From the NCBI RefSeq assembly GCF_025370875.1, contig NZ_JAMXFD010000025.1, forward strand, positions 1 to 64,000: 64,000 bases of DNA, given 5' to 3'. Position numbers and translations under genes: made by a program. The notes beneath the pieces were generated by a model. That model saw nothing but the letters and a program-made list of their open reading frames with translations, was not told the DNA's origin and made no database searches. Positions 15,927 to 56,984 of this stretch are shown here, piece after piece; positions within the stretch are counted from its first letter, which is position 1; every line of letters starts with the position of its first letter. The DNA comes from Laspinema palackyanum D2c. Its GTDB lineage: Bacteria; Cyanobacteriota; Cyanobacteriia; Cyanobacteriales; Laspinemataceae.

Positions 15927-16210
15927 ACGGAATTCGCCTTTTTTGTAAAGTGTCTGTAAAGTTAAGGGGAATTGTATCAAAGAAGAAAATACTATCAGGC
16001 ATTTTTATGCTTTTATAGAAAAATTAGAAATAATCATAAGCCAAACTACTTAGCAAGCATTGCCCGGTAGCTGCTTTTGATGAGACTGTGGCAACTAAGA
16101 GGAACAGAGATGATGGGTGGGTAGAGCAACTAAAAACCAAAACTGTTGATGGGAAAGGTACCTGCACAGGCGAGAGGGGCTTTCGTCGCTTTTAACGTTT
16201 GCGGCTGACG

Positions 16211-16250
16211 TAAAGTTTTGTAACAACTGCCAGCATTTCCCGTAAAAATC
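16211..16250 (+). promoter_or_regulatory. ECF-like promoter motif upstream of giant gene 2
   Basis: TAAAGTTTTGTAAC-N16-CGTAAAAATC, about 140 bp before the ATG. Spacing and both elements match the sites upstream of giant gene 3 and, in mirror orientation, the sigma gene. The TGTAAC / CGTAAA pairing at 16 nt fits known ECF-type promoters, which keep AAC at -35 and CGT at -10. Confidence 0.7.
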
Positions 16251-16389
16251 AGAACCTTCCTTAGAGAGCAAGATAGAGGCAACTGTCAAAATCCGTCTGA
16301 ATCTGTATTGCCTCTTGGCTCTGAAACAGAGCGCGAATCTATAGATGGAGTTCTCTTAGTGACTTGGATCCAGAATCAGAGGTGCTTAA

Positions 16390-23454: not shown

Positions 23455-23497
23455 CTCATTCCTCTGTAAAATCTGTGAAATCTGGGGCTTTAAATTG

Positions 23498-23537
23498 TAA
23501 ACTTTTATGACAAATTTTGCCATTGGCCGTAAAAATG
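23498..23537 (+). promoter_or_regulatory. ECF-like promoter motif upstream of the PEP-CTERM gene
   Basis: TAAACTTTTATGAC-N16-CGTAAAAATG, 61 bp before the ATG at 23599. The downstream element matches the other sites over nine bases and spacing is again 16; the upstream element matches 11 of 14 positions. Confidence 0.55.
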
Positions 23538-23598
23538 CCTTGGCAGTGCAGAGAGAAAAACAGACAAACCGTGCTAAACGCAAAGGAGCAACTGAACC

Positions 23599-24249
23599 AT
23601 GAGTTATTTTTGGCATCTGGAACACCGCGAACCGCAAGACATTTACGGTCATAAAATCGAAAGTTTGAGTGGTGGGTTCCTCTCCATTCAATCGACGACG
23701 AATAGCAATGCTGAGGCGATTTCCCTTCCTTTTATCTGGGGACGGAGTTCCACTTTTACCCGTAGTCAGTGGTGGATCGACCCGGATGAAAATTTTACCA
23801 ATCTGTTCGGTCAACAACCGGATGATGTTTACTGGTGGCAACTGCGCTCTCTGGCTTCTAGCAGCAATAATACCGTTGGTGGCATTAATTTAACCTCGGT
23901 GAACCATCAGGAAGTCTCTTCGGAGGACGACATTTTTTTAGTTTTGGCACAAAATGATATTTTAGATCCGTTTATTAATACGGCCAATCCCATTCGATTT
24001 AGGAGTGAAAATCCGTTAACCGATGAAACTATTTTCAACCGCTTGTTTACGCAAGACTATCAAGTGGTTGAGGTGACGGAAATTTCATTTGAGGAAACCG
24101 AGACAAATTCCCCGGTGACTTCAGTTCCAGAACCTTCGTCTTATGTCGGGGTGCTGGTGTTGGGAATCCTGGGGGTCAGTTTAGCGCTCAAACGCCAACT
24201 GGGTCAGATGCGATCGCGCTCATCCCTTCTCATCCGTGAAAATCTGTGA
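23599..24249 (+). CDS. PEP-CTERM-tailed protein of unknown function
   Basis: 216 residues. The C-terminus has the PEP-CTERM sorting signal: VPEPSS, a hydrophobic helix (about 183-198) and a basic end (LKRQL). Such tails are recognised by exosortase in bacteria that make exopolysaccharide. The tail continues about 18 residues beyond the usual basic end, and no N-terminal signal peptide is seen, which is odd for this class. The body is rich in Trp, Asn and Ser and matches no family I recognise. It is preceded by the shared promoter motif and followed 86 bp later by the haemagglutinin/TpsB gene, which also has its own promoter. Confidence 0.65.
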   Translation: MSYFWHLEHREPQDIYGHKIESLSGGFLSIQSTTNSNAEAISLPFIWGRSSTFTRSQWWIDPDENFTNLFGQQPDDVYWWQLRSLASSSNNTVGGINLTSVNHQEVSSEDDIFLVLAQNDILDPFINTANPIRFRSENPLTDETIFNRLFTQDYQVVEVTEISFEETETNSPVTSVPEPSSYVGVLVLGILGVSLALKRQLGQMRSRSSLLIRENL

Positions 24250-28660: not shown

Positions 28661-31329
28661 CACTAAAATTTAAGTTGATGGTTTGGGCGATTTGCGGACT
28701 GATTCTCAGTCTGAATCTGCCAGTATTGTCAGCACAAATCGGACAGGGTTTATTGGGGTTTGAAGAAAATGCTCACCCGGCACTCGCTCAATCTATTGAG
28801 CCAGAATCGTTATTGGAACGCGCTCGTACTGCTTATCAGAATGGGGAATTTTTAGAAGCGGCACAACTGTTAAAACAGGCAGAAGCGATGTTTGGCGATC
28901 TCGAAGCAGTTGTCGAGCGCGCCGTCAGTTTAAGTTATCTGTCGTTAGTCTATCAAAAATTAGGACAATGGCCGGAAGCAACGGAGGCGATCGCCACCAG
29001 TCTAAGTTTATTAGAAAATACAGCTAATGTTCCCCTGTCTGTGCTGGCGCAAACCCTGAACGCGCAAGGAAATTTACAATTAGCGCAAGGACAAGCTGAA
29101 GCCGCTTTGGAAACCTGGAAACAGGCCGAAATGGCTTATCAAAAATCAGGCGATCGCGAAGGAGTTAGAGGTAGCTTGATGAATCAAGCAAAAGCCTTGG
29201 AATCGATGGGATTTTCACGAGCGGCTTGCAATACTATTTTTGAAGTTTTAGAGGTAGAGAGGTTGACTTGCGAATCCTTAGTTCAGTCGCCCGATCCAGA
29301 GTCAACGTCGAAAAAGTCAAATTTAGATGAATTTCTCCTCAGTTTACAGCAACAACCCAATTCCGCTATCAAAGCAATGGCACTCCGAAGTTTGGGAAAC
29401 CTGCTGCGATCCTTTGGTTACTTGGAGCGATCACAGCAAATTTTGGAACAGAGTTTGCAAGTGACTGAAACCCTACAATCACCTCAAGAGATAAGTTTAT
29501 CTTTACTGAATTTAGGGAATACTACTCGTGCCCAAGAAGATTTTACCCATGCTTTGGCATTCTACAACCAAGCGGCGATCGCCGCTAGTTCTCCAGCCAC
29601 TCGTCTGCAAGCGTACCTCAATCAACTGAGTCTGACTATTGAAGTAGATCAAATAGCAACAGCCTCACCGATTATCACACAAATTCAATCTGAACTCGAC
29701 GATCTACCCACCAGCGCGATCGCAGTTTACGCCCGCATTAATTTCGCCCGCAGTCTTTGGGACCTGAGAAATCAAAGCAATCGCTACGATTTGGCCCAAA
29801 TCGAGGAATTATTAAAAATTGCCGAACAACAAGCTCAAGAACTAGGCGATGACAGACTGCGCTCTCACGCCTTGGGAAATCGCGCTTGGTTGTCCGAACA
29901 AAAGGAAGATTGGTTACAGGCGCAACAACTCACCACGGATGCGATCGCTTTAGCTAAAGACGCTCCAGAAATTGCTTATCAGTGGCAATGGCAGATGGCA
30001 AGAATTCAACAGAAAACCCAGGAAAATTCCAGCGCTTTGCAATTTTATGATGCGGCCATTGCGAGTTTAAAATTAGTTCGCAAAGATTTAACGGGAATTA
30101 ATCCAGATATTCAGCTATCCTTTCAGAAACAAATCGACCCCCTGTATCGAGAATTTGTAGACTTGCTATTGCAAAAGGAAAATCCCAGCCCCGAAAACTT
30201 AGAAAAAGCCCGACAGGCGATCGCTGATTTGCAACTGGCAGAATTAGAGAACTTTTTGCGGTGCAGCTTGCAAACTGAAACCCCCGTCGAACTGGATCTC
30301 CTTGCAGAGGAACATCAGGCAGCCATTATTTATCCGATCATTTTACCCCAACGATTAGCCGTTATCGTTAAACGTCCCGGTGCCTCCGACTTGCTCTATT
30401 TCCAGACAGAGATTTCGCGGCAGGACGTCGATCAGAAACTAGATACCCTCAGAACAGAATTAGAAGAACGCTTTGTTTCTACTGAGGCGAAACAGCTATT
30501 GCCCGAGGTTTATAACTGGTTAATTCAACCGATTGAAACTGCATCTAATTCTGAGGTAAACCCCATTAAAACTTTGGTGTTTGTGCTAGAGGGTCGATTG
30601 CGGAATATTCCGATGGCAGCGCTATCTAACAGTAAGGGAGAATATGTCGTCCAGAAATATGCAGTCGCCCTCAATCTCGGTCTAGAATTAAAAGATCCCC
30701 AACCCCTCTCCCAGCAATCTTTAACCGCACTATTAGCTGGAATTACCGAACCCTTGCGCGGATTGCCAGCACTCGAATACGCAGATCGAGAACTCAACCT
30801 GGTTGAAAACTCTGTGAGTTCAAGTCGCCAACTGCGAAACCAAAAATTTAAAAAAGAAACCTTGGAAAATCAGATCAATTCGCGCTCGTTTGCGATCGTT
30901 CACCTTGCTACTCATGGCGAATTTAGTTCCCAACTCGAAAAAACGGGAATTGAAGCATGGGATGGACGGATCAATCTGGATGAATTAAGCACGATTTTCA
31001 CCCAACAAACGGAAAATCAACCCAGTCCCATCGAACTGTTAGTATTGAGTGCTTGTAAAACCGCAGATGGAGACGATCGCGCAGTGTTGGGACTAGCTGG
31101 AGTTGCCGTGCGATCGGGTGCCCGGAGTACCGTTGCCTCCCTGTGGTATATCGACGATGAAACTAGCGCCCTTTTAATGAATCGATTTTATTATTATTTG
31201 AATGACCCTCGCGCACTCAGCAAAGCAGAAGCGCTGCGTTTGGCACAAGATGATATCCGCAAGGAATTTATCAATAAAAGAGCGCCTTATTATTGGGGAT
31301 CGTTTGTGTTGGTTGGCAATTGGTTATAG
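28612..31329 (+). CDS. Secreted TPR-CHAT caspase-like protease
   Basis: About 905 residues from the ATG at 28612. The frame is open from 28570, but that start would overlap the previous gene by 91 bp; an ATG at 28678, 17 bp after the previous stop, is also possible. A hydrophobic segment ending LPVLSA looks like a signal peptide. Tetratricopeptide-like helices fill about residues 60-560. The C-terminal third is a CHAT domain with the Cys/His pair in LATHGEF (H768) and LSACKTADGD (C815), numbering from 28612. CHAT proteins are caspase-fold cysteine peptidases, often regulated by attached TPRs. It overlaps or abuts the haemagglutinin-TpsB gene and is convergent with the DUF928 operon. Substrate unknown; surface passengers next door are candidates. 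Confidence 0.85.
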   Translation: MARKRGIFYHSFRFILTLKFKLMVWAICGLILSLNLPVLSAQIGQGLLGFEENAHPALAQSIEPESLLERARTAYQNGEFLEAAQLLKQAEAMFGDLEAVVERAVSLSYLSLVYQKLGQWPEATEAIATSLSLLENTANVPLSVLAQTLNAQGNLQLAQGQAEAALETWKQAEMAYQKSGDREGVRGSLMNQAKALESMGFSRAACNTIFEVLEVERLTCESLVQSPDPESTSKKSNLDEFLLSLQQQPNSAIKAMALRSLGNLLRSFGYLERSQQILEQSLQVTETLQSPQEISLSLLNLGNTTRAQEDFTHALAFYNQAAIAASSPATRLQAYLNQLSLTIEVDQIATASPIITQIQSELDDLPTSAIAVYARINFARSLWDLRNQSNRYDLAQIEELLKIAEQQAQELGDDRLRSHALGNRAWLSEQKEDWLQAQQLTTDAIALAKDAPEIAYQWQWQMARIQQKTQENSSALQFYDAAIASLKLVRKDLTGINPDIQLSFQKQIDPLYREFVDLLLQKENPSPENLEKARQAIADLQLAELENFLRCSLQTETPVELDLLAEEHQAAIIYPIILPQRLAVIVKRPGASDLLYFQTEISRQDVDQKLDTLRTELEERFVSTEAKQLLPEVYNWLIQPIETASNSEVNPIKTLVFVLEGRLRNIPMAALSNSKGEYVVQKYAVALNLGLELKDPQPLSQQSLTALLAGITEPLRGLPALEYADRELNLVENSVSSSRQLRNQKFKKETLENQINSRSFAIVHLATHGEFSSQLEKTGIEAWDGRINLDELSTIFTQQTENQPSPIELLVLSACKTADGDDRAVLGLAGVAVRSGARSTVASLWYIDDETSALLMNRFYYYLNDPRALSKAEALRLAQDDIRKEFINKRAPYYWGSFVLVGNWL

Positions 31330-31384: not shown

Positions 31385-32263
31385 TCAGGGTTCTATCACA
31401 TAACGCTCGACAATCGCTTCATCGGCAAAATCACCCAAGTTAACTGAGTTTAACAAACTTTGCCAATCTCCGGCGATCTCACTATTCGATGGATTTTGTA
31501 ACCGCCGATCGCCCAATAGCGTCAGCGCATCATACCAAATTCCCTCAGTGGCATACCCCGCAACTGCTTGGCGGAGTGTCTCATAGGGGATTTCTTGCCG
31601 ATTTATCCCCTGCCACTGACTGATTTGTTGTGAAGGCGTTACCTGTTGCACCCAACCCTGAACAAACAAATTGTTTAAAGAGGGGCGATCGGGATAGCAG
31701 ACAATTGTCAGTTGCCACCGATAATATTTCCCTAATTCTAGCAGTTTATCCGTAGCAACTGCGGGAATTCCAATCCCAATTATTCCCGGATTTTCCGGTA
31801 ACGTGATCGTGGTACTATAAAGTTCTTCTGCATTTTCATTGACTAAGGCAAATTCCGCCTGGAGTGGAGCGTGATAGGGCACGAAAAACCAGAATGTGGG
31901 AGAATCAGACACCGTATATTCTTCCACATATTCCACCCGGCGATCGCCACTTTCGGCCTGCTCCATCACGATTCGCGAAGGCACTAAAGCTTTTAATGGT
32001 TTTTTCACTTCCTCTGGACATAAACTGCCTTCGAGATTACTCGGACGAGTTCCCCCACCCGGTTCTGTATCTCCCGGTTTTCCCTCACCCGAACCATTGG
32101 AAGTATCTTCATTATATACCTCTCGCGGAATAAAGCGCAACGGATTAAAGGAGGGTGGGTTCTGTCCCTTTCCCGGCAGTACCCAATAGCTCAAAGCGGC
32201 CATTAAACAGGCCACCATCACCCAAATCTGAATGCTGTTATTTATTTCAAATTTTTGACTCAT
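31385..32263 (-). CDS. DUF928-family protein
   Basis: 292 residues: one N-terminal membrane or signal segment (about 10-30), a Pro/Gly-rich linker, then the DUF928 domain with characteristic phrases PTFWFFVPY, AEFALVNE and PGIIGIGIP (about 95-290). The function of DUF928 is unknown; in cyanobacteria it is commonly found beside CHAT, CHASE2 and DUF1822 genes, as here. It is the last gene of the operon, 25 bp after the CHAT-CHASE2 gene, and probably faces the periplasm. Confidence 0.8.
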   Translation of the reverse strand: MSQKFEINNSIQIWVMVACLMAALSYWVLPGKGQNPPSFNPLRFIPREVYNEDTSNGSGEGKPGDTEPGGGTRPSNLEGSLCPEEVKKPLKALVPSRIVMEQAESGDRRVEYVEEYTVSDSPTFWFFVPYHAPLQAEFALVNENAEELYSTTITLPENPGIIGIGIPAVATDKLLELGKYYRWQLTIVCYPDRPSLNNLFVQGWVQQVTPSQQISQWQGINRQEIPYETLRQAVAGYATEGIWYDALTLLGDRRLQNPSNSEIAGDWQSLLNSVNLGDFADEAIVERYVIEP

Positions 32264-32287: not shown

Positions 32288-34822
32288 TTAATACTTTTTA
32301 TTAAGAATAAATCGATGGTAAAATAAGACTATACCGCCGCTGGATATCAATGCTAACAACGATGGAACTAACGGCACCCAAGTACCCCCTATCAAAAGTA
32401 AAAAGGAAAGCCCTGATAAAGATGCGATCGCGATTCCTCCTTGGATTCCCAACCGTAGTAACACCGCCATGCTACCGCCCGAAGCGACAAATCCGAGCGC
32501 TGAAGGCACTAGAGGCACCCACCATCCCCCTTTTACTAAAAACACAAAGCTGATCGCCAATAAACTCCCGAGTCCAGCACCAAAAACTGTTCCCAAATGC
32601 CATCCGGAACGCAAGTAAAACGCCACCAAACCGCCTGCTATAGACCAGCCCCAAATCCACAGCATTTCTCCCCATTTCGGCCATACTCCCAATAGTGGAC
32701 GATTGTCTAAAACCGCACCCAGGATTTGGGCGATCGCGTGAGCTTGAAACACCACGGGCGGCATCTCTAATGTTTTCTCACGACGCGGATTGGCATCATA
32801 CAATCGCGAAATATCTTGAGCGTAAGCGATCGGTGTCGGTAGATTGGTAATGCGGCTGGCTGTAGTGCCGATTAATACAATGCGATCGCGAATTAAGTCG
32901 GGGTCTATTCTCCCTTGTAAAATATCCCATAGCTCTAATTCCTCTGCGACTTTTCCCCCGGCTCTATAATTCAGCAAAATTTGATGTCCGCGACTATCTA
33001 ACTCATGATAGCCTCCACTATCTTTTTCCAGGGTTTGAAAAACCACCCGTCCTAGTTGAAAATACTCCTGTTGCGTTAATTTTAGTTTGATACCTTCTGC
33101 TTGGAGGTAATGTCGTGCTACTTGAAGACTAAAGGATTTATCCGTTTGGCAAAGAGAATTGCTAGGAGACATGGCTAAAATATACCGACGTAGAACCCTA
33201 TCATCATCCGGTAAAATATCTCCAAATCCAAGACGTAGTTTTTCGGAAACTTCATTGGGTGGTGCGATGCTGGGTTTATCTGGCGTGTGGCTGCCCACCG
33301 CGCAAAGGGCAATAAAACTAGAATTTTGCTGTAGTTTGGCAGCTAATTCGGGATAATTGACATTCACCGGAAAATCACGATAGAGATTCAAGGCGATCGC
33401 ACGGGGTTGTAACGGTTCGAGAATTTTTAGCAGCCGATCTAGCTTGTCATCAGGTAGGGAAGTGAGGGGGGTTTGTTCCGGTGATGGCAAATCTTTATTG
33501 GTAATTTTGACAATCGTAATCCGTGAATCCAACCCTTCGGAGGGACGCAATTGCATCAAGCGATCAAACGCTTTTAATTCCAGTGGTTCTAATACCCCAA
33601 GCGATCGCATTCCCATCACTAAACTGGTCACCAGTACGCTCACAAATAATACCGTACTCACCATCTGCCAGGGCGAGCGTCCAATGGGTTGCGGTGCTGG
33701 CACAATCGGTTCCGGTGTGGGTTGAACGATTAAATCCGTCCAACTCAGAGGCTTCACCGCAGGATTTTGACAGATAACTGGCAACCAAGTTGCACAAGGA
33801 AATTCTTTTTCTAACCCTTGCAATTTTTCTCTCGCTTCTCGCACAGCCAGATAAAATGGTTTCCCCTGAGAAAATGCCTGGAGAAAATCCTTCAAAAATT
33901 CATGAGCGACGCGATCGGGGACGGGTTCGCGCATGACAATCGTTTGGGGAATCTGTAACTCCGCCAGTTCCTGGGCCAATCCCAATCCATCACAAGAGTT
34001 GAAAATCGCTAGTTGCAAGCCGCGATTCACCGCTTTCCTCAATCCATATTTCAACTCAGCAATAGATAACTTCTCCCGTTCATTGATATAAATGACCCCC
34101 CGTTCATTTTCGCTCTCGCTATGACCGGCAAAAAATAAAATATCCCAATTTTCCTCCCACAAAGAATCATTAATTTTTCGATACGGCGGTTGGACTAAAA
34201 AATTGACATCGGCCTGAGGCAAATTTTCCAAAATTTGGCGATCAACTGTTGTCTCAATTCCCTCATCATGTCCGAGAATAGCTAAAATTTTTACCTTCTG
34301 TTTCGGCACTTTTAATGAAGTGACACCTTGAACCGATGGGGGACTCAGAGCCAGTTCAGCTTTAACATAGCGGTCAAAAAAGTCCCATAAATGCCAGGGA
34401 AGTTTCTGTAGCTGCCGATCTGCGGTGCGAATCAGGACGCGAATTTCATCCTCCCGGCTTAATTCTTCGCGCAGTCGGCGATCGCAGTGGCGAAATTCTG
34501 GAGATTCTAGCCAATCATTGAAGCGATCGCTCAAGACTTCAGCGGCTTCGCAACATTCCTCGATCCGCTTCTCAATCCCCCCATCATAAATAATTTTTTT
34601 GGTTTTGATTCGTCGGGAAGGCTCGCCAATGTTGCGATATTTTTCCACCCAGTCATACAGTTGTGTACTCAACTCAGGTGACCGAGGGAGCTTCCCAGGT
34701 AACTCGATCCAAGGGCGATCGCCCTCCAATCCGATTTCCAGCATCACCCGAACCTCTTGACGCTGGAAATCGCCATCTAGTTTAATGACAACTAATTTTC
34801 CCACAATGGCCTCCCCTGACAA
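32288..34822 (-). CDS. CHAT protease fused to a CHASE2 sensor and membrane segments
   Basis: 844 residues. The N-terminal part ends in a cytoplasmic CHAT domain (about 150-370) with the catalytic pair in FFAGHSE (H234) and FNSCDG (C277). A membrane helix (about 385-405) leads to a CHASE2 extracytoplasmic sensor domain (about 410-690; LKAFDRLMQLRP at its start, IVLIGTTA near its end). Four to five hydrophobic segments (about 715-840) close the protein. CHASE2 usually feeds histidine kinases or cyclases; here the output is a protease, so an external signal could directly control proteolysis in the cytoplasm. It lies 16 bp after DUF1822 and 25 bp before DUF928, in the sigma-factor operon. The CHAT substrate is not known; DUF1822 or the sigma factor are my guesses. 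Confidence 0.85.
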   Translation of the reverse strand: MSGEAIVGKLVVIKLDGDFQRQEVRVMLEIGLEGDRPWIELPGKLPRSPELSTQLYDWVEKYRNIGEPSRRIKTKKIIYDGGIEKRIEECCEAAEVLSDRFNDWLESPEFRHCDRRLREELSREDEIRVLIRTADRQLQKLPWHLWDFFDRYVKAELALSPPSVQGVTSLKVPKQKVKILAILGHDEGIETTVDRQILENLPQADVNFLVQPPYRKINDSLWEENWDILFFAGHSESENERGVIYINEREKLSIAELKYGLRKAVNRGLQLAIFNSCDGLGLAQELAELQIPQTIVMREPVPDRVAHEFLKDFLQAFSQGKPFYLAVREAREKLQGLEKEFPCATWLPVICQNPAVKPLSWTDLIVQPTPEPIVPAPQPIGRSPWQMVSTVLFVSVLVTSLVMGMRSLGVLEPLELKAFDRLMQLRPSEGLDSRITIVKITNKDLPSPEQTPLTSLPDDKLDRLLKILEPLQPRAIALNLYRDFPVNVNYPELAAKLQQNSSFIALCAVGSHTPDKPSIAPPNEVSEKLRLGFGDILPDDDRVLRRYILAMSPSNSLCQTDKSFSLQVARHYLQAEGIKLKLTQQEYFQLGRVVFQTLEKDSGGYHELDSRGHQILLNYRAGGKVAEELELWDILQGRIDPDLIRDRIVLIGTTASRITNLPTPIAYAQDISRLYDANPRREKTLEMPPVVFQAHAIAQILGAVLDNRPLLGVWPKWGEMLWIWGWSIAGGLVAFYLRSGWHLGTVFGAGLGSLLAISFVFLVKGGWWVPLVPSALGFVASGGSMAVLLRLGIQGGIAIASLSGLSFLLLIGGTWVPLVPSLLALISSGGIVLFYHRFILNKKY

Positions 34823-34837: not shown

Positions 34838-35746
34838 TCAGATTATAAAAGCTTCCGTTACGCTCACGTCGTCCAACGTGACTTTAACGCTAAATTGTTC
34901 CCCGGGTTCCCCACTAAAATTGAGTTGAATGTTCTTCGTATTTCTGGCTTGCGCTTGCATGACTGCCACCCCTTCTGCATCCAGTATCATTAGGTTTAAA
35001 CTTGGGGGAAGATACACTCGTTCATCAGTGGGATAGACTTCAATCCAGATGTCCATTTCTGGCGGTTGTGCGGGCTTCATTCCCACCACCAACGCCACAG
35101 TTTCACCCCCCCGAGTTAATTCTATTACCTTACCTCGCTTAACACTGGGCCGTCTAACGTTAAAAACCAATTCAGTTTTTTGTTGCCCTAAAATTGCTTC
35201 CACTGTATCCCAACCGGCCTCAAAAATATGATGTAGCCATTGGGTTAACTGAATGGCGGGTTTCGGTTGCAGTTGATGGATATAATCTAGGAAATTTTCC
35301 AGGGTTTGAAATTGACTCAAAGGAATTTCCTCCATCTCTACGGTTTTGATAAATCCGTATAATGTCGCTTCTCTGGCCGATTCGCTAAACTGCACTGCCA
35401 CATAACCAATGCGATCGCCCCAAACCTCCGCCGGAATCTCTACAATTTCCGAGCCGAGCGACAGGGGACGGCACTCGATTTTTCCGATATTTTTAAGTTG
35501 TAAATCGGCCACATCCGATAGAGTTTGCATCACCGGATCCCAACTGTCACTTTCTTCTAGATCCGTTGTAATTCCCATGCACTTGCAGTAGAAGTTTACC
35601 GCTAACACAGCTAAAGTATTGTGATAAACCCGTTCTGCCTTTGCTGGATTGGATTGCTGGCGACTAAATTTCCGGGCGATGTCCTGCCAGGAGCGGGTGA
35701 GCGGTATGGTAAATGTTAATTGGTTTCGATGGATGCTAGTCATCAT
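34838..35746 (-). CDS. DUF1822-family protein, candidate sigma regulator
   Basis: 302 residues, no signal peptide or membrane helix. The N-terminal part carries the DUF1822 pattern (Q-x-x-A-x-x-F with AERVYHNTLAVLAVNFYC, about 20-60; WGDRIGYVAVQF at about 110-121) and the C-terminal part is beta-rich. Its function is unknown. It starts 22 bp after the sigma-factor stop codon, the usual place for an anti-sigma or accessory protein, and it is followed closely by the CHAT-CHASE2 protease. A regulatory role toward the sigma factor is inferred from this order only. Confidence 0.75.
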   Translation of the reverse strand: MMTSIHRNQLTFTIPLTRSWQDIARKFSRQQSNPAKAERVYHNTLAVLAVNFYCKCMGITTDLEESDSWDPVMQTLSDVADLQLKNIGKIECRPLSLGSEIVEIPAEVWGDRIGYVAVQFSESAREATLYGFIKTVEMEEIPLSQFQTLENFLDYIHQLQPKPAIQLTQWLHHIFEAGWDTVEAILGQQKTELVFNVRRPSVKRGKVIELTRGGETVALVVGMKPAQPPEMDIWIEVYPTDERVYLPPSLNLMILDAEGVAVMQAQARNTKNIQLNFSGEPGEQFSVKVTLDDVSVTEAFII

Positions 35747-35767
35747 GTTTAATTTCCTGGATAAATT

Positions 35768-36379: not shown

Positions 36380-36438
36380 GACTCAATCTCAATGCACTCT
36401 ATTTGCCTTGCTTTACCTATTTCTCTGAACGAATTAAG

Positions 36439-36478
36439 GGTTTTTACGGATTATCTCGGATTTGTTTACAAAAATTTA
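36439..36478 (-). promoter_or_regulatory. Autoregulatory ECF-like promoter of the sigma gene
   Basis: On the minus strand TAAATTTTTGTAAA-N16-CGTAAAAACC, 60 bp before the sigma start codon. The upstream element is 13/14 identical to the plus-strand site at 36810 and the spacing is identical. Confidence 0.65.
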
Positions 36479-36613
36479 CATTTTAGCAATTCAGCCTCAA
36501 TCATCCCCCTTTGTTGTTGCGGATTGCCAAGAGAGTACAAATAAAAAAGCCGGGATTCAGTCGCCACAAAGCAAGAGGCTTCTCCACAACGGAAGAACTC
36601 AGGAAATTGAATG

Positions 36614-36653
36614 TAAAGTTTTGCAACAATCTTCAGAAGAACCCGTAAAAAAG
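36614..36653 (+). promoter_or_regulatory. First plus-strand ECF-like promoter motif upstream of giant gene 3
   Basis: TAAAGTTTTGCAAC-N16-CGTAAAAAAG. It lies 196 bp upstream of the second copy in the same orientation; no gene starts between them, so it is either a tandem promoter or drives a small RNA. Confidence 0.55.
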
Positions 36654-36809
36654 CCAAGTCAAGACCGAGAGCAAAGATTAAGGCAGAGGTGCTTATCCGC
36701 TCCTGCAATCGACTGTTAACCGCCAAAGAGGAAACAGGCGATCGCACCCTGACTCCAAACTGAACCCCGTACACCTCTGTTGTTTTGCAAGAGATGAAAA
36801 ACTTTATGT

Positions 36810-36849
36810 AAAGTTTTGTAAAAATCTCGGCACTGAACCGTAAAAATCC
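36810..36849 (+). promoter_or_regulatory. Second plus-strand ECF-like promoter motif, upstream of the NfeD-like gene
   Basis: TAAAGTTTTGTAAA-N16-CGTAAAAATC, 98 bp before the ATG at 36948. The downstream ten bases are identical to the site before giant gene 2. Confidence 0.7.
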
Positions 36850-36947
36850 CGGGATAGCTCAGAGAGATTTAGGTGAAGGCACCAAACAACTGCTTTTGAT
36901 TGCTCGCCAACTTTCAACAATTGCTGGTATTAGGGAGACCGAAGTTT

Positions 36948-37277
36948 ATGTCATCAGCTTCTGTGCACCGAAAAAATTGGTTGGTTGCCATTGTTAGGCT
37001 CTTGTTTTCCAAGAATCATTCGGAAACGGGTCGTTATTATGCAACGCCAAACCCTGAGTTTTTGACTTCAGTGGAGCGAGAAGCAATTGTTGATGAAGCA
37101 ATTCTCCCGCGAAAAGTTGGGCGAGTTTATTTTGGCGGTTCTTGGTGGCCTGCTCGTTGCGATCGCCCAATCACCCTGGCTCCCGGCGAAACGGTTTATG
37201 TAGTGGGTCGTCATAATATCACTTTATTAGTGGAACCGGAATCTTTTATAAAAACGATGGTCGAGTCTGTAAGTTGA
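36948..37277 (+). CDS. Small NfeD-like OB-fold protein
   Basis: 109 residues from the ATG at 36948, preceded by AGGGAG; an in-frame ATG at 36900 is less well placed. Residues about 45-100 match the C-terminal OB domain of NfeD ([37 protein letters not shown]). The serine-protease and membrane parts of full NfeD are absent. NfeD domains accompany membrane proteases and stomatin-like proteins; here the gene sits between the shared promoter and giant gene 3, 179 bp before it, so it may be co-expressed and assist membrane handling of that protein. That role is inferred. Confidence 0.6.
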
Positions 37278-37456: not shown

Positions 37457-40400
37457 ATGCCTTTAGACGGTGCATATACCAACACCCAAGAAACTTTTGG
37501 AATCGATCCGCTGTTGAAAGGACTCGAAAAAGACCCGCTGTCCATGCCTCCAAGTAGCGGTGGGTATGAACCGGAAGACAAATTACCCCAAAATAGTGGT
37601 TTTGATAAGGACTTAGTTTCCAATCCAAACTTGTATTCAACGGGGATTAAATCGGATGAGCTTGGAACTTCTACGACTTCCATTTCGAGTGGAAAAGTAG
37701 AAGCATCAACCGTTGAGTCTGATGTAGATCCACTGACAAAAGAACCCCTTAAGGAAGAGGCAAATCCACTACCGGATGAAACAGATCCATTGGTTAATCC
37801 CCGTCCAAGTGCAGCAGTAGAGGAGGAAGTCCCATCAGAAACTACTGTGGATAGCGAGGGTGTGGATGAGGAGAATGATAGTAGCGTAGACGAACCCGTT
37901 GACGGTGATACTGATCGGGAAACCACTTCGTCGGTAGAATCCGATGATGAGAATGGGGTGACGGACGAGGGGGATGAGATTGCTGATAATGATTCCCTTT
38001 CCGTGACGAGTGAAACGGATGAGGCAACCGAGGAGGAGGCAGAAGTTACAACGGATGATACTGCCCATTCGACTGATGCCACAGTGACAGAAGAGACGGA
38101 TGAGATTCTCGGTGATGATTCCTTTTCCGAGACCACGGGTGAGTCAGATATAGAGGTGGGTGACAATACTGCCTCAGTAACGGGTGAAATGGACGAGGAT
38201 GCAGAAGTTGCAAGCGATGATGCTGGCGATTCCCAAACCGAGGCAGATGAAATAACGGCAACCGATGAAACAGTTTCTGATCGCGTGGGGGAAGAAGAAA
38301 CTACCGCTGAAGATGTGGATGACGAGGAAAGCGATCGCACGGAAAATGACATCACTCAAGACCCTGATGAAGAAACCTCTTCTGAGTTAACCTCTACCGA
38401 CGATACTGCCGGTGAAAATAATACTGTGGGAGAGACAGCAGAAATTGCTGACAGCGGCGATGAAGAAATTGAGACAGATGTAACCGGCGAAACGGAAGAC
38501 AACGCTGCTGACGATGCTACTGCCACAGATGATGCAGCGGAAGATAGCGCAGATGTCGTTCTGGATGAAGCGATCGCCACTCCTAAAATTAACTTCGACA
38601 TTGGTATCTTCAAAGTAGATGCAAGGGGTGAGGTTAGTATCGACTTCCTGTTTGATGGTGGTGCGTTTAGATCTCAAGTGGCGATCGTCAGTTTATCCGG
38701 AATGGAGGGATTAGATCCGAACTCCGTTGAATTTATCCGAGAAGCGGCAACTCGCGCTGCCAGCAAGAGCGAACTCGGACATATTGTTATTAATGATATC
38801 AGTGAAGGTGCCAAATTTACGGGTCGCTTGGGTGAAGGCAACTATAATTTCGGCACATACGAAGGCGTAAAAACCTTTATGATGCGTCCGGGGGATGAGT
38901 TTTTCCTGATGTTGGTGCCAAATGGGATGGTGCAGCAGGTGATAGATAATCCTACTGCTTCTGGTGGTATTCGTCCGTTATTTTCTGTTGCCACCGCTAA
39001 CCCGGATGATGCGTATCATGCGGGACAAATTGCCGATTTGACTGGGGATGGGAGTGCTTTTGCCTGGGAAGATTTGCGCTTTGATCGCGGTACGGATAAA
39101 GATTACAACGATATCGTTTTACAAATACGAGGTGCCAAAGGTAAAGCCGCATTAATGGATGACGTGGTTGCGGAGGGTAAAGACTGGCGCAACACCGACA
39201 TGGGACAGGCGTTGATCGAGTATGTGAAAGCGTACATCACGCCAGATGCACCAGATTTTGATAGTGCGATATCGGATTTGATTGGCGAACTGGAAGATTT
39301 GACTGCCGGTGAGGAAACGGATATCGAAACTGATTCTGGAGAAGAGGCGATCTCTAATGAGGAGATTGAAGATGCCATCGCTGACGGCAACAATCCTGAA
39401 ACAGAAGAAACCGTAGATGAGATTGCCGATTCTAAAGTAGAAGATGCGATCGCCTCCGATGAGATTGAAGATACGATCGCCTCTGATGTTGTTGGTGATG
39501 AAGTAGAAGACGCGATCGCCTCCAATGATACCGTTGCTGAGGAAATCAACAATTCCAGCGCCTCGGATGATACTGTTGCCGATGATACTTCCGACACCCA
39601 TCCTAATGAAACCGTAAATGAAGTTTCCGACACCGACACCGCGATCGCACCGGAAACCGAGGAAGTCGTTACCGATTCCCCTGAAGATTCATCCTCTGAA
39701 TTAGTCGAATCGTCAGTGGAGGAAACTGATGCCACAACCGAAGTACCATCAGTAACAGCAGACCTCATTATTGATGAATCTGAAAGCATTGAGGAGTCCA
39801 CAGAAAAAGACGATTCAGAAATCAACACTTTGGTTGAAGAAGTCGAAACCGAAGTCGAATCGTCAACCGAGACTAGCGAAACGACGGAATCCAGCCCTCA
39901 ACCTGTCGCTACCGACTCTGCCGATAATTCCGAAACTGAAATTTTACCTGCTACTCCCGAAGTAGTTTCTAGCGACAATTCTGCAACACATGACACAGAA
40001 GTTGTAGAAACTACTTCCGAAACTGCCAGCGAGACGCCGGTTGTTAAAATTACTCCTGCTGATGTGGAGTCACAGAGTGGTAATTCAGATTTTGTTGCTA
40101 CGAATGAGGAGGCGATCGCAACTGGTTCTCAAACAGCAGATAATTCTGCTGAAAATTCAGATAATACTGATGCAATTACTCCCATCACACAACTTGTTAA
40201 TCCTGTCAATAGTCAACTCATTTCTCGGTTAGAAACCCTAACCCAAACGCTGAAAAAACAAGGAACGGATGCATTGGTTTCGGGTGTAACTTCAGTAACT
40301 CCGGCGCTTGTGGAACGGCTGGAAACGCTCACGGAAAGCTTGAAAAACCAGAACAATTCTCAGTCAGTGAGTACCAATACGACTGCATTGGTGTCGCGAC

Positions 40401-43400
40401 TGGAAGAAATGGTCGTGCGATCGCTACCGCCTGCGATCGTTGCACCCGTGAAGGTACAGGTGGAACCTCCGAAAAAAAATCAACCCTTAGTCGGCGTTAT
40501 CGATACCGAATTTAGTCCCGATAATCCCGATATCGATTACTCGCGGATTACCTGGGGAGAAGATCACGTTGATGGCGATAGCGACCCAACCTTAAACGCG
40601 GATGAAGGTAACCAACACGGCACGCACACTTTAGGAATCATTGCTGCCACACAAAACAACGGAATTGGTATTGATGGCATCAATAATACTGCACCAATTT
40701 GGGCAGGACGGGCGATCGGTTCTGGGAAATGGGCAGAATCATTAGTTGAGTTTGTAAATGCAGCACGGGAGTCCGGACAACCCAACGCAGTCGTTAACCT
40801 CAGCTTAGATCTGACTCAAACTAACCCTGATGGTAGCGTCACCACTCGTTATGAATTCACGCCACAAGAACGGGCCGCGATCGAATATGCGCGTCAGCAT
40901 AACGTGATGATAGTTGTCGCGGCAGGAAATGATGGCGGAGTCATGTCGGCTTTGGGTCAATCTTCCCAGGAGTTTGACAATATTATTACCGTCGGTGCAG
41001 CAGAACGAATTAACGACGAAATTGCCTTATCCAAAGCCTATGATCGCAGTGGATATTCCAGCTACGGACGCGGTTTGGATATCATGGCTCCCGGCGGAAC
41101 CCCTGACTTTCCCCAACTTTCCACCAGTGGCGATGGCGTTGGCACGATGGCAGGAACATCCGTTGCCACCGCCAAAGTAACGGGGGCAATTTCTCAAGTT
41201 TGGGCAGCCAATCCCAGCCTCAGCTATCGGCAAGTCATTGAGATTATCAAGGATACTGCCACTGATTTGAAAGACCCGAATTGGGATAGCGAAACGGGTA
41301 CGGGGTTGCTGAATATGACAGCAGCAGTGATGTTAGCCAAAGCAACTACCGGAGAAGAATATGATGTATTACCGACACTAATTCCCGACAGTTGGAGTGG
41401 CGAAGGAAAGGTAACCCCTGGGGAACGTGCCAGCCAGACAATGGAAAACTTCCGATTGCGAGTTTGGCCCTCAGATGGCGTAAACCTGCGGAATAGTCCG
41501 AACTTCAGCGATCGGAGCCCCTATTCTCTTCCCCAGAATACTTGGCTTGACTTTGATGCTTGGACTTGGGGCAGTGTAAATATCGATCCAGTCAGCGGTG
41601 AACAGGATGCGTTGTACTACCGGACTTGGTACAACGGGAACACCTATTGGGTTCCCAGTATTTGGATTGATGGTTATCCGCCGAGTCGTCCCTCACTATT
41701 GCCACCCGCACAGCCACAGTCACAGCCAAACTTAAACAATACAGTGGGTTACGATGGCTCTTCAACCCATCAGACCTATATCAACACATTTAAGCGTAAC
41801 GGTGCTTCCTCAGCTTTAGGTTCGCCCACGAATAACGTCCACCCTTGGGGTAACGGCTACATTCAAGACTTTGCTGGTGGATCTGAAAGTCTTGGGGGGA
41901 TTATGAAATCGAACGCCAACGATAATTCCTACTGGGTTGGCAGCGATTTTTGGAATCAGTTCCTAGACGTAGCCGGTGCCGATGGAATTCTCGGTTATCC
42001 CACATCTGACCGTTATTCCACCAATGGCGGTGAGCGTCAAAACTTCCAAGGCGGTGCAATTATCAAGTCATCGAATGGGATTTTCCCATTATTTGGCGGG
42101 ATTGGTGGTTACTATCTTGGCACTGAAGGTGGGGAGAGCGGACGATTAGGTTTTCCTACCAGTGGCGAAATCGGCATTGGCAACGGAGTTATCGTTCAGA
42201 ACTTTGAAAATGGCCGCATTGTCTACGGGGATGGTCCAACTCGGACTGAGATTAATAGTCAACCACAACCCCAGCCACAACCCCAGCCACAACCACAACC
42301 TTCTGGTCGTCCTTATATTATTCAGTCTGAAGATACACTCTCAGCGATCGCCCTGCGAGAACTGGGCGATGCTAACCGTTGGCGGGAAATTAAAAAAGCT
42401 GATGGTAGCACCTTTACCGAAACCGAGGCGCTCTATCTCCAAATTGGGCAAGTCGTCTACCTTCCAGAAGGTAGCACGCAACCGCAACCGCAACCACAAC
42501 CGCAACCACAACCACAACCCCAGCCTCAACCCCAACCACAGCCTCAAGTTCCGATTAACTCCTCTTCCGATAACTATCGTGAGGGGTCAGTCAACCCCTT
42601 TGCCTACCATTACCAAGGTCAATGTACTTGGTTTGCCTATGGTCGGATGTTAGAAACTGGGTTGCTACCTGCTGGGGCTAAGACGAACGGCTTGTTCCTG
42701 GGTCATGCTTATGAGTGGGAGCAAGATGCGATCAATGTAGGTCTGCCCGTGACCTCCACGCCCACTGCTGGAGCGCGAGGGCTGGTGGTTTGGCCTCCTG
42801 GCGTTCAAGATGGTCATCCACAATACGGCCACGTCGCTTTCTTAGAAGAAGTTTACCCCGATGGTCGAATTCGGATTTCTGAGTCGAACTGGGCGGGTCA
42901 GGGTATTGGCGATCGTATTTTGACCCCCGCACAATACAATGGTTTGCGCTTTGTGCAACTGGAAAATGCCCTGGCTGATTTCAGTAATTATGCGCCTCCA
43001 GGACAACCGGGGCAAAGTCGGCAATATGTAGTCAAGTTAGATGACACCCTGTGGGAAATTGCCCAACGAGAACTCCGCGATGGCAATCGCTGGCGAGAGA
43101 TTATGAAAACTCCCACTGGCGGAACATTTAGCGAAGCTGAAGCCCAACAGATTTATCCCGGAATGTCGGTGTATCTGCCAGTGAGCTATGAACCTGGGAC
43201 GGGTAATCCGGTGACACCCACTCCAGCACCCGGAACACCTGCCAATACAGTGAGCGAAGCAGGTTTGAGGTTTATTGCCCAACATGAAGGACTCCGACTA
43301 AATCTGTACAACGACCCTGCCGGTCACTGCACGATTGGAGTTGGTCATTTGGTACACTACGGCAATTGTAATGGCAGCGAACCCGCAGAGTTTCGCGCTG

Positions 43401-45247
43401 GCCTCAGCGAAGAGCGTGCCTATGAATTGCTCCGCTCTGATGTGAATGTAGCGGTGCAGGCTGTGAAAAGCTTGGTTAAAGTACCGCTAAACCAGCAACA
43501 GTTTGACGCCCTGGTGAGTTTTACATTCAACCTGGGTGCAGGAAATCTCCAACAATCTGCGTTATTAGAACGACTCAATGCGGGCGAGTACAGTGCAGTG
43601 CCCTATGAACTGAGCCGGTGGGTGTATGGTGGCGGCGTTAAGTTGCCAGGTTTGGTGCGACGTCGGAATGAGGAGGGCATCCTCTTCCGAGATGGAATTT
43701 ATACGGGAGTTGCTAATCCGCCTGCAACTGTAACCCCTCCTCCGAGTTCCACACCAAGTTCAACTAGCAATATTAAGTGGGCGAATTTCGAGGGCACTGT
43801 AGGGCCATCTATCGGCGTGAATTTGCGGCATAGTCCTCGGTTTAGTGATCGCAGTCAGTGGAGTGAACCCAATGGCCAACTTTTAGAATTTGATGCTTGG
43901 ACATACGGCGAAGTTGACACCGATATGTGGACAGGACAAGCAGACAATCGCTGGTTCAAGATTAAGGGGAAAGACTTGTGGGTTCCGAGTGCTTATATTT
44001 GGGGTAATCCGCCGAATTCTGACATGAATACTGGAGATAATTCACATGGTGATATTGTTATTACCCCAGACCCTGATTATAATTCTCCAGAAGATCCCGT
44101 GATACCTGTTCCAACATTATCAATTTCCTATGTCGGTAATGCTGAAGATGGTTCTTCTGTCGTGTTTCGCAACCAATCTATTGAGGTATCTGGAACTTCT
44201 AGTACACCAAAACTAGAGTTTTATATCGGGAATCAGAAAATTGGTGGGACTTTAGATTACTTCACTGATGGTAGCTTTAAGGCAAAACTCAATCTTACTG
44301 ATAATATGCAGCTAGGTTACTATTCTGTTGATGTATCTGTCGAGCAATCATCTGGCGTGACCACTAAAGTTAATAGTGGCTTTTCTATCAACTTGGTTGA
44401 GAATGACTGGAATAAGCACTATATAGGCCAAACAACTGGAGGAGATAACCGCTATATCATTTTTGAGCGTACCAATAGCCCCGGCTACATTGAAAATCAG
44501 AACACTTGGGTTGTTATACATGGGTGGGATGGTGAAGCTGGACAGTTCAAAAACCTAGCCAGTGCTATTGAGGAATACGATGGATATCAGGTTGGAGATC
44601 AAGTTCTTACCCTAGACTGGGATGCAGCCAGGACGAGTGGTGACAATAAATTGAAGGGGTTTGTGGATAACCTCCATGATGCCTCAAGTTGGATTGAGAC
44701 AGTTGCTAAATTTACTGCGAACACTCTTAAATCTTGGGGAATCTCAGGGAGCAACTTAAATCTGGTGGGACACAGCCTTGGAGCCTATGTTTCTTATGAA
44801 ATTTCTGAGGAACTTGGAGGTATAAGTAAATTGGTTGCATTGGCTCCTGCTTCAACAACTACTGGAGGATATCCAAACCGCCCAAATGTGGATTTTAGTA
44901 AATATTCTCAGTGGTCTTGGGGATTTTATCACAATTCAACAACTGATAATGCAGAGCAGGCTAAGACAGCTCATGAGTCCTTTAAGGTAGATTTCGATTT
45001 TGCCAATGTCAATGAAGGACATGGAGCTATCAAAAATCTTTGGGAAAATATGCTGAAAAACAAGAATGGATCGGTAAGTCAATACTTTGGGCTTGACGAC
45101 ATAAATTCTAATGGTAAATTTTGGTATATAGATACTCCAGGTATGGGTTCTGACTGGGAAGCCAAAATTGAATCAATAGATACCAAGGGTTTGGGATCTA
45201 AAGATTCCCACTGGGTTCCGGCTGAAGGTGGATTAAAAGAAATGTAA
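37457..45247 (+). CDS. Giant exoprotein 3: DUF4114, subtilase, LGFP, LysM, CHAP, GH24 lysozyme and lipase-like domain
   Basis: 2596 residues; AGAGGA lies 9 nt before the ATG. Order: acidic Asp/Glu/Thr arm (1-370); DUF4114 (about 376-575); second acidic region; subtilase with D1016, H1054 (HGTH) and S1235 (GTSVA), though Asp sits in IDTEF rather than the usual IDTGF; SH3-like (about 1334-1405); LGFP repeats (about 1428-1588). Two Pro-Gln linkers flank a LysM (about 1618-1672). A CHAP amidase/endopeptidase (C1723, H1792) and a second LysM (about 1855-1910) follow. The T4-type GH24 lysozyme has E1944, D1953 and T1959, the exact spacing of E11/D20/T26 in T4 lysozyme. SH3, an Ig-like domain and an alpha/beta hydrolase (S2440 in GHSLGA, VIHGWDG before it) end the protein. 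It combines several peptidoglycan-cutting activities with a lipase-like tip. No Sec signal is visible. Confidence 0.88.
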   Translation: MPLDGAYTNTQETFGIDPLLKGLEKDPLSMPPSSGGYEPEDKLPQNSGFDKDLVSNPNLYSTGIKSDELGTSTTSISSGKVEASTVESDVDPLTKEPLKEEANPLPDETDPLVNPRPSAAVEEEVPSETTVDSEGVDEENDSSVDEPVDGDTDRETTSSVESDDENGVTDEGDEIADNDSLSVTSETDEATEEEAEVTTDDTAHSTDATVTEETDEILGDDSFSETTGESDIEVGDNTASVTGEMDEDAEVASDDAGDSQTEADEITATDETVSDRVGEEETTAEDVDDEESDRTENDITQDPDEETSSELTSTDDTAGENNTVGETAEIADSGDEEIETDVTGETEDNAADDATATDDAAEDSADVVLDEAIATPKINFDIGIFKVDARGEVSIDFLFDGGAFRSQVAIVSLSGMEGLDPNSVEFIREAATRAASKSELGHIVINDISEGAKFTGRLGEGNYNFGTYEGVKTFMMRPGDEFFLMLVPNGMVQQVIDNPTASGGIRPLFSVATANPDDAYHAGQIADLTGDGSAFAWEDLRFDRGTDKDYNDIVLQIRGAKGKAALMDDVVAEGKDWRNTDMGQALIEYVKAYITPDAPDFDSAISDLIGELEDLTAGEETDIETDSGEEAISNEEIEDAIADGNNPETEETVDEIADSKVEDAIASDEIEDTIASDVVGDEVEDAIASNDTVAEEINNSSASDDTVADDTSDTHPNETVNEVSDTDTAIAPETEEVVTDSPEDSSSELVESSVEETDATTEVPSVTADLIIDESESIEESTEKDDSEINTLVEEVETEVESSTETSETTESSPQPVATDSADNSETEILPATPEVVSSDNSATHDTEVVETTSETASETPVVKITPADVESQSGNSDFVATNEEAIATGSQTADNSAENSDNTDAITPITQLVNPVNSQLISRLETLTQTLKKQGTDALVSGVTSVTPALVERLETLTESLKNQNNSQSVSTNTTALVSRLEEMVVRSLPPAIVAPVKVQVEPPKKNQPLVGVIDTEFSPDNPDIDYSRITWGEDHVDGDSDPTLNADEGNQHGTHTLGIIAATQNNGIGIDGINNTAPIWAGRAIGSGKWAESLVEFVNAARESGQPNAVVNLSLDLTQTNPDGSVTTRYEFTPQERAAIEYARQHNVMIVVAAGNDGGVMSALGQSSQEFDNIITVGAAERINDEIALSKAYDRSGYSSYGRGLDIMAPGGTPDFPQLSTSGDGVGTMAGTSVATAKVTGAISQVWAANPSLSYRQVIEIIKDTATDLKDPNWDSETGTGLLNMTAAVMLAKATTGEEYDVLPTLIPDSWSGEGKVTPGERASQTMENFRLRVWPSDGVNLRNSPNFSDRSPYSLPQNTWLDFDAWTWGSVNIDPVSGEQDALYYRTWYNGNTYWVPSIWIDGYPPSRPSLLPPAQPQSQPNLNNTVGYDGSSTHQTYINTFKRNGASSALGSPTNNVHPWGNGYIQDFAGGSESLGGIMKSNANDNSYWVGSDFWNQFLDVAGADGILGYPTSDRYSTNGGERQNFQGGAIIKSSNGIFPLFGGIGGYYLGTEGGESGRLGFPTSGEIGIGNGVIVQNFENGRIVYGDGPTRTEINSQPQPQPQPQPQPQPSGRPYIIQSEDTLSAIALRELGDANRWREIKKADGSTFTETEALYLQIGQVVYLPEGSTQPQPQPQPQPQPQPQPQPQPQPQVPINSSSDNYREGSVNPFAYHYQGQCTWFAYGRMLETGLLPAGAKTNGLFLGHAYEWEQDAINVGLPVTSTPTAGARGLVVWPPGVQDGHPQYGHVAFLEEVYPDGRIRISESNWAGQGIGDRILTPAQYNGLRFVQLENALADFSNYAPPGQPGQSRQYVVKLDDTLWEIAQRELRDGNRWREIMKTPTGGTFSEAEAQQIYPGMSVYLPVSYEPGTGNPVTPTPAPGTPANTVSEAGLRFIAQHEGLRLNLYNDPAGHCTIGVGHLVHYGNCNGSEPAEFRAGLSEERAYELLRSDVNVAVQAVKSLVKVPLNQQQFDALVSFTFNLGAGNLQQSALLERLNAGEYSAVPYELSRWVYGGGVKLPGLVRRRNEEGILFRDGIYTGVANPPATVTPPPSSTPSSTSNIKWANFEGTVGPSIGVNLRHSPRFSDRSQWSEPNGQLLEFDAWTYGEVDTDMWTGQADNRWFKIKGKDLWVPSAYIWGNPPNSDMNTGDNSHGDIVITPDPDYNSPEDPVIPVPTLSISYVGNAEDGSSVVFRNQSIEVSGTSSTPKLEFYIGNQKIGGTLDYFTDGSFKAKLNLTDNMQLGYYSVDVSVEQSSGVTTKVNSGFSINLVENDWNKHYIGQTTGGDNRYIIFERTNSPGYIENQNTWVVIHGWDGEAGQFKNLASAIEEYDGYQVGDQVLTLDWDAARTSGDNKLKGFVDNLHDASSWIETVAKFTANTLKSWGISGSNLNLVGHSLGAYVSYEISEELGGISKLVALAPASTTTGGYPNRPNVDFSKYSQWSWGFYHNSTTDNAEQAKTAHESFKVDFDFANVNEGHGAIKNLWENMLKNKNGSVSQYFGLDDINSNGKFWYIDTPGMGSDWEAKIESIDTKGLGSKDSHWVPAEGGLKEM
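42256..42546 (+). repeat. Two Pro-Gln codon-repeat linkers flanking a LysM domain
   Basis: At about 42258-42303 and 42478-42546 the gene is a run of CCA/CAA-type codons giving (PQ)n. They separate the LGFP, LysM and CHAP domains as flexible linkers and are likely to vary in length between strains. Confidence 0.8.
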
Positions 45248-54915: not shown

Positions 54916-54917
54916 AG

Positions 54918-56980: not shown

Positions 56981-56984
56981 TTCA

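Follow-up and report, generated by a model that had tools for sequence, protein, structure and literature searches.

Related systems and gene content of the locus

Several described systems share features with the locus examined here. Similar in gene content are the neighbourhoods reported by Kaur et al. 2021, which comprise EACC2-caspase-CHASE2, DUF1822 and ECF sigma factor genes; neither a promoter nor its targets nor a regulator box upstream is described in the available portion of that report (PMC8195603). In type III-E CRISPR systems, the TPR-CHAT protease Csx29 is reported to cut a sigma inhibitor, and the CASP-sigma/Csx30/Csx29 arrangement sets a CHAT protease beside an RpoE-like sigma factor with motifs in its own locus (PMC10028731, from the accessible text). 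ECF (group 4) sigma factors had the AAC/CGT promoter pair as an early hallmark, whilst later definitions rest on domains (PMC8103513, in the part available). In the RpaB-activated low-light promoters of cyanobacteria, activating copies of the HLR1 element KTTACAWW-N2-KTTACAWW lie at -66 to -45, and the targets named in the accessible text are photosynthesis genes (PMC13421787). SigF, an alternative autoregulated cyanobacterial sigma factor tied to surface proteins, reads type 3 promoters with TAGGC/GGTAA boxes, as far as the available part of the source goes (PMC2758279).

The window (the whole 64,000 nt stretch analysed here) carries the set of sigma factor, DUF1822, caspase/CHAT and CHASE2 genes, as identified with Pfam and sigma profiles (Table 1). 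By profile and fold comparison, the family of the 203 aa protein P0001 is a divergent ECF-like sigma family, containing sigma2 and sigma4 regions in the absence of sigma3, which is the ECF layout. P0001 itself had no Pfam match at a threshold of 0.001, Sigma70_r2 appearing only at 0.12, whilst amongst 18 family members searched at E<=0.1 Sigma70_r2 was matched by eight and r4_2 by four. A profile of 18 relatives matched SigK (E=8.4e-5) and RpoE/SigE (E=0.0014) in PDB. NCBIfam models matched at E<=0.1 were SigK in 9/18 members, sigma70-ECF in 7/18 (best 8e-6) and the type III-E CRISPR sigma in 4/18; P0001 alone gave weak sigma matches (best 0.0094), the type III-E model not being amongst them. 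An AF2 model of P0001 (mean pLDDT 82.5, pTM 0.52) had ECF and other sigma factors as its best Foldseek neighbours in PDB, with weak E values of 0.06 or above. The likeness to ECF factors comprises the sigma2/sigma4-like parts, the SigK and RpoE/SigE profile matches, a rigid spacer and a promoter before the factor's own gene. Unlike them, the promoter described below would have GCGTAAAA and CnGAnA in place of AAC/CGT, the Pfam sigma models match weakly, and the putative regulator (DUF1822/CHAT-CHASE2) belongs to no known anti-sigma class. A second sigma paralog, 33 % identical, is present in the same genome (G000:C52:9411-9998, locus L048).

A DUF1822 relative directly followed the sigma gene in 12/17 sigma loci, where three of the five misses had less than 130 bp left (L063, L071 and L077), two had more (L087 and L103), and L074, cut inside the gene, was excluded. 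As in type III-E systems, a CHAT protease lies beside an RpoE-like sigma factor with motifs in its own locus, but neither an RNA-guided effector nor Csx30 was recognized here, and sensing would instead fall to the membrane protein with CHASE2. PADLOC results for eight window proteins named none of Cas7-11, Csx29 and Csx30, comprising instead a TPR match and Csx3/Cas10/Csm genes 15-22 kb away. The latter form a type III-A-like CRISPR-Cas region at 51172-60169 (Csx3, Cas10/Csm1, Csm3, Csm4 and Csm5), with repeats seen by eye near 62600; these genes share the window with a sigma family that has type III-E-model matches in some members.

Table 1. Genes, predicted core promoters and upstream boxes of the window
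Feature	Position	Strand	Remarks
HlyD-family secretion protein	777..2360	-	Adjoins M50-like gene
M50-peptidase-like protein	2397..4145	-	HELGH by eye; no own Pfam match
Sixth site, degenerate, TAAAGTTTTGCAAC-N16-CATAATT	4265-4229	-	84 bp before M50-peptidase-like gene starting at 4145; missed in the original prediction
HLR1-type box of sixth site	4252-4269		1 mismatch
Box A of giant 2, HLR1-like, reverse orientation	16207..16224	+	2 mismatches to KTTACAWWNNKTTACAWW by eye; '-35' of the original prediction
Giant 2, predicted -35 CCCGTAAAA	16239..16247	+	Alignment on CGTAAAA, core scan
Giant 2, predicted -10 TAGAGAGC and start region AAGATAG	16262..16276	+	Predicted +1 16275; present too in orthologous locus L268
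Giant 2: DUF4114, subtilase S8, P-domain, Calx-beta	16390..23421	+	
Box A of PEP-CTERM gene, degenerate	23494..23511	+	2 mismatches to HLR1 by eye
PEP-CTERM gene, predicted -35 CGTAAAA, -10 CAGAGAGA, start region AAAACAG	23528..23563	+	Predicted +1 23562
PEP-CTERM protein	23599..24249	+	
Two-partner secretion protein (TPS, POTRA, ShlB-type)	24335..28660	+	No own motif found
TPR-CHAT protein	28570..31329	+	
DUF928 protein	31385..32263	-	Last gene of presumed sigma operon
CHAT (caspase-like) and CHASE2 membrane protein	32288..34822	-	Pfam; GHS, NSCDG by eye
DUF1822 protein, candidate anti-sigma	34838..35746	-	Pfam; directly after sigma
P0001, divergent ECF-like sigma factor, 203 aa	35768..36379	-	Family profile, fold model; proposed cognate sigma
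Sigma operon, predicted -35 TCCGTAAAA, N14, -10 CAGAGAAA	36418..36450	-	Predicted start 36418
HLR1-type box of sigma-operon promoter	36465..36482	+	Exact match; -64..-47 of predicted start
HLR1-type box of tandem distal promoter toward NfeD	36610..36627	-	1 mismatch
Distal NfeD core promoter, predicted: CGTAAAA-N14-CCGAGAGC-AAAGATT	36644..36679	+	No clear TAG
HLR1-type box of proximal NfeD/giant 3 promoter	36805..36822	-	Exact match; -66..-49 of predicted start 36871
Proximal NfeD/giant 3 core promoter, predicted: -35 CGTAAAA, N14, -10 CAGAGAGA, start region TTTAG	36839..36872	+	Predicted start 36871
NfeD-domain protein	36900..37277	+	
Giant 3: DUF4114, S8, CHAP, phage lysozyme, LGFP	37457..45247	+	Weak lipase-like matches

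Distribution of the sites in this genome and across cyanobacteria

The original prediction described five copies of a two-box motif with boxes exactly 16 nt apart. All five were found, with N16 in each. Four matched the predicted consensus at <=3 mismatches (16211-16250, 36614-36653 and 36809-36848 on the forward strand, 36439-36478 on the reverse strand), where 0.00 were expected from 100 shuffles; the fifth, at 23498 (TAAACTTTTATGAC-N16-CGTAAAAATG), has four mismatches by eye. Four of the five coordinates stood as given, whilst the site placed at 36810 starts at 36809. The genes behind the sites are those proposed as targets, namely giant 2, the PEP-CTERM gene, NfeD/giant 3 and the sigma operon. 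Nor is the motif scattered: when the whole genome (7,030,144 bases, 81 contigs) was scanned with the looser pattern TAAANTTTTNNNA-N17-CGTAAAAA, the only matches at 0-1 mismatch were the five window sites, all perfect, and at <=3 mismatches there was no excess, with 80 sites in all versus 101 for a reversed-pattern control. The five-site element is a real regulatory element and not a product of chance. The degenerate sixth site has a near-copy on another contig (L263). Rfam, applied to 35700-37500 at gathering thresholds, returned no structured RNA. Upstream of giant 1, at 15910-15965, several TGTAAAG/CTTTACA repeats were seen by eye, the full motif being absent.

Scanning the genome collection for AAGTTTTGTAAC-N13..19-CGTAAAA yielded 68 sites at 67 loci, which were divided into cyanobacterial and other by record title (that of L101 reads only 'uncultured bacterium'). 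The 53 cyanobacterial sites were concentrated at gaps of 16 nt (42 sites), 15 nt (nine) and 17 nt (two), whilst the 15 non-cyanobacterial sites were spread over gaps of 14-19. A sigma-family gene lay downstream on the same strand in 17/53, with 128-219 bp between motif and profile match in 16 cases and 1046 bp in one. A further 16 sites preceded exported, membrane or export-related genes, identified by BLAST to the window proteins and by Pfam, with start codons 51-770 nt past CGTAAAA. These included relatives of the giants (L067, L081, L086 and L113, the last two representing the window locus of a close relative), a DUF4114 gene (L092, 770 nt away), a two-partner secretion gene (L080), RTX genes (L061, L070 and L114), COP23 and/or trypsin-like genes (L069, L073 and L109), a short PEP-CTERM-like match (L106) and NfeD (L064). 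The last two of the 16 (L089 and L102) have the full motif before BLAST relatives of the M50-like protein, with a sub-threshold M50 match in L089. The remaining 20 of the 53 sites had no assignment or lay before other genes, for example Cas10-like L112 and KilA-N L091, the downstream genes having been searched in part. The gap-15 version occurred in records mostly titled Nostocales (L069, L073 and L109) before trypsin-like protease genes, accompanied in L073 by a COP23 gene, and L094 and L107 have similar gap-15 sites. In Geitlerinema sp. P-1104 (L112:4669-6545), the A-B motif lies 207 bp before the Cas10/Cmr2-like gene.

The motif also tracks the presence of the sigma factor. Within the family, perfect sites occurred in 5/7 genomes with a close sigma relative (E<=1e-40) versus 0/7 without; at <=1 mismatch all 14 family genomes matched, and the seven without a close sigma gave 14 matches versus 13 for the control. 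In the class sample, a sigma match was present in 11/12 genomes with a site at <=1 mismatch, a count that is modest taken alone because all 12 belong to the window's order, in which 31/62 genomes have a sigma match. The exception, G318, has a one-mismatch site and no sigma match, and G007 is likewise an orphan. On a quick sigma tree, promoter type was clustered (22 changes versus a shuffled mean of 37.1, with 0/200 shuffles as low), near-copies contributing to this figure. The carrier genomes are related to each other. From these comparisons, the link between motif and sigma factor appears well supported; the sequences themselves show conserved boxes at a conserved spacing, which in this genome are restricted to the locus and which co-vary with sigma clade.

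The predicted core promoter, its register and the upstream box

The original prediction took AAC as the -35 and CGT as the -10 element. AAC occupies the proposed -35 place in only 2/5 sites, GAC being present in one and AAA in two, and the resemblance to the AAC/CGT pairing, read there as the mark of an ECF promoter, is probably coincidental. Moreover, a third conserved block, missed in that prediction, stands exactly 14 nt past CGTAAAA at all five sites (TAGAGAGC, CAGAGAGA, CCGAGAGC, CAGAGAGA and CAGAGAAA), a conservation that 0/20,000 shuffles reached under either of two shuffling schemes. This block lay outside the genome-collection search pattern and, as [CA].GA.A at an offset of 13-16, follows 46/53 cyanobacterial sites versus 0/15 non-cyanobacterial ones. 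TAG usually lies ~5-6 nt beyond it, with T, A and G present in 79, 55 and 60 % of the 42 gap-16 sites.

A core matrix comprising CGTAAAA, the third block and the TAG region was run on the regions upstream of 121 sigma genes, which had been located through their proteins. In a first test, whose training sites overlapped in part with the genes tested, 40/121 passed the shuffled 99 % level, 16 of them without box A (the upstream box). The test was repeated at this level with relatives held out: 39/121 regions passed where ~1 was expected (27 without near-copies), and 82 did not. The spacer was 14 nt in 27/39 passing regions and 13-15 nt in 37/39, the shuffles having no preferred spacer. Box A was absent from 15/39 (11/27 after near-copy removal), and no A half-box of more than 7.5 bits was found anywhere in those 15 regions; amongst regions with a box A-CGTAAAA match, 23/47 failed the core matrix. 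In this genome, the only 0-1 mismatch matches to the core pattern with TAG were three sites, all at this locus; at <=3 mismatches the pattern was rarer than its control (88 versus 139), and 2/5 window sites match only at three mismatches. When motifs were sought de novo in five sigma clades, plausible blocks resembling the core emerged in some clades, whilst the blocks from others were inconsistent. Because of the third box at N14 and the held-out pairs that lack the upstream box, we read CGTAAAA as the -35 and CAGAGAGA as the -10 element; TAAAGTTTTGTAAC would then be an upstream activator box, and the register first proposed is probably wrong. The simplest reading has GCGTAAAA as -35, CnGAnAGA as -10 and a start at TAG, with an upstream box that some promoters lack.

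In a footprint comparison with orthologous promoters of two relatives, the boxes were 89-100 % identical, with identities in the surroundings of 90 % (16211), 59 % (23498), 88 and 73 % (36439), 73 and 58 % (36614) and 96 % (36809). With such identities, only some of these comparisons are distant enough to be informative. For the PEP-CTERM promoter, the comparison with L281 gave boxes 95 % identical and surroundings 59 %. These promoters had been selected partly on boxes A and B, but not on the third box. A shifted layout was apparent upstream of ten sigma genes (L045, L055, L194, L200, L205, L208, L209, L210, L216 and L228), eight of them in one 16-row clade, where a AAGTTTTGTAAC-like box lies ~5 nt (3-5), not 16, before a GCATAA-like box. 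Several of these genes have TTATGCAA further upstream, and in some, such as L045, a third-block-like sequence was seen by eye. This layout is suggestive only, because 0/10 of its genes pass the core matrix (the best being L045, at 15.2 versus 16.2). Paralogs of the L048 type form a 20-row clade without box A, in which L038 and L039 have a weak core match.

Read as its reverse complement, box A is close to HLR1, the element bound by the light/redox regulator RpaB. The five window boxes match the 18 bp HLR1 consensus exactly in two cases, with one mismatch in one and, by eye, with two mismatches in two, and they lie at about -68 to -47 from the predicted starts. HLR1 occurs in this genome 18 times exactly and 74 times at <=1 mismatch, versus 16 for the control, and the boxes at 36465 and 36805, in the same intergenic region, account for two of the 18 exact copies. 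The fit is not complete: amongst 41 gap-16 sites outside the window, HLR1 is followed at three out of four informative free positions, whilst the T at position -4 lacks conservation and the AA directly flanking HLR1 is conserved. The single half-site AAGTTTTGTAAM occurs at 18 places in the genome versus five for the control, three of them inside the window. When 20 regions representing the other 15 AAGTTTTGTAAM places and 8/74 HLR1 places were compared, none had CGTAAAA at N16, and the CATAATT variant was found only in L263; L266 had no box at <=2 mismatches. An explanation by a global RpaB regulon alone was rejected on the basis of these 20 regions. An NtcA site, GTAN8TAC, was also set aside by eye, since the last letters of the box are TAA and the spacing to the following box is unsuitable. 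Box A is likely a candidate RpaB activator site that the original prediction mistook for a -35 element. As in the low-light promoters, an HLR1-like box would lie at about the activating distance, but the genes served here are exoprotein genes and the core is not SigA-like.

Proposed regulation and alternatives

Taken together, we consider it reasonably likely that the sites are composite promoters of one divergent ECF-like sigma factor, consisting of a core plus an HLR1-like box and driving the sigma factor's own operon, exoproteins and export genes. The core would have -35 TGCGTAAAA/CCCGTAAAA and -10 CnGAnAGA (CAGAGAGA here) separated by 14 nt, with a start near TAG. At the activator box (TGTAAAGTTTTGTAAC), RpaB, an OmpR-type regulator, or a similar protein would aid polymerase carrying the sigma factor. 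The latter would drive its own operon (sigma, DUF1822, CHAT-CHASE2 and DUF928) by autoregulation, and beyond it giant 2, the PEP-CTERM gene, NfeD/giant 3 (from a pair of promoters in tandem) and, by way of the degenerate sixth copy, the M50/HlyD export pair; the two-partner secretion gene might be read from the 23498 promoter. DUF1822 and/or the CHAT-CHASE2 membrane protein would probably control sigma activity by proteolytic release, and CHAT cleavage of an inhibitor may be what frees the sigma factor, a step suggested by gene order and analogy. The claim that this sigma factor controls all the sites is well supported as a link, through confinement, co-variation with sigma clade and apparent autoregulation, and falls short of proof. 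The operon structure, the assignment of these promoters to the sigma factor, their start sites, the binding of RpaB and the release mechanism are inferred.

The register first proposed, in which TAAAGTTTTGTAAC would hold the -35 (AAC), CGTAAA would be the -10 (CGT) and the downstream CAGAGAGA/TAG a conserved transcribed leader, draws on the printed AAC/CGT hallmark (PMC8103513, part of the text) and on the rigid 15-17 nt spacer of the 53 cyanobacterial sites. We find it rather improbable given the 15/39 well-scoring cores without an upstream box or half-box, the presence of AAC in only 2/5 window sites and the resemblance of the upstream box to a genome-wide regulator site. In the ten shifted-layout genes, moreover, which fail the core matrix, this box lies too near the GCATAA-like box for a -35/-10 pair. 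Whichever protein binds the upstream box, it may be a different OmpR/PhoB-type regulator or a system-specific partner and not RpaB, as the deviation at position -4, the conserved flanking AA and a first repeat that is degenerate by eye in the shifted variant would allow. This is a real possibility that we lean against, since 2/18 exact HLR1 matches share this single intergenic region, where their distance from the predicted starts is the one published for activation.

Another sigma factor, such as SigF or a different group 3/4 member, could read the core promoter with the neighbouring sigma gene merely a target. TAAA-N15-CCGATA, which we take to approximate the sigma-28 consensus, was counted in favour of this idea, as were the orphan sites in two genomes without a sigma-family match. 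The motif is, however, confined to the sigma locus here and follows sigma clade and close-relative presence in the family, and the Synechocystis SigF boxes are given as TAGGC/GGTAA in the accessible text (PMC2758279). Inspection of the alignment of the five promoters by eye showed neither of these boxes, a SigF promoter was rejected, and the wider idea seems to us quite unlikely. Chance or an AT-rich low-complexity artefact can point to AT-rich half-sites and to single half-sites elsewhere (AAGTTTTGTAAM at 18 places, control 5), but is contradicted by the shuffled, reversed and non-cyanobacterial controls and has a negligible probability.

Returning to the composite promoter, a more specific version would relate the locus, as a form without CRISPR, to the protease-sigma switch of type III-E systems: the CHASE2-CHAT protein, a caspase-like membrane sensor, would cut an inhibitor, perhaps DUF1822, and free the sigma factor, whose promoters would also need RpaB. 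We hold this version to be speculative and on balance unlikely; if true, giant secreted lytic/adhesive proteins would be made only when an outside signal and photosynthetic redox state agree. A literature search confined to openly accessible journal papers, and judged by the entries listed, gave no account of this promoter. The results offer a testable promoter code for a sigma family matched in 155/388 sampled genomes of the class, and the lesson that what looks like the -35/-10 pair of an ECF promoter can consist of an activator box and a -35 element. They would also link the caspase/CHASE2 module, so far described as a gene neighbourhood in the available part of the source (PMC8195603), to outputs comprising giant exoproteins, two-partner secretion and M50/HlyD export, with a possible further connection to the light/redox network of RpaB.
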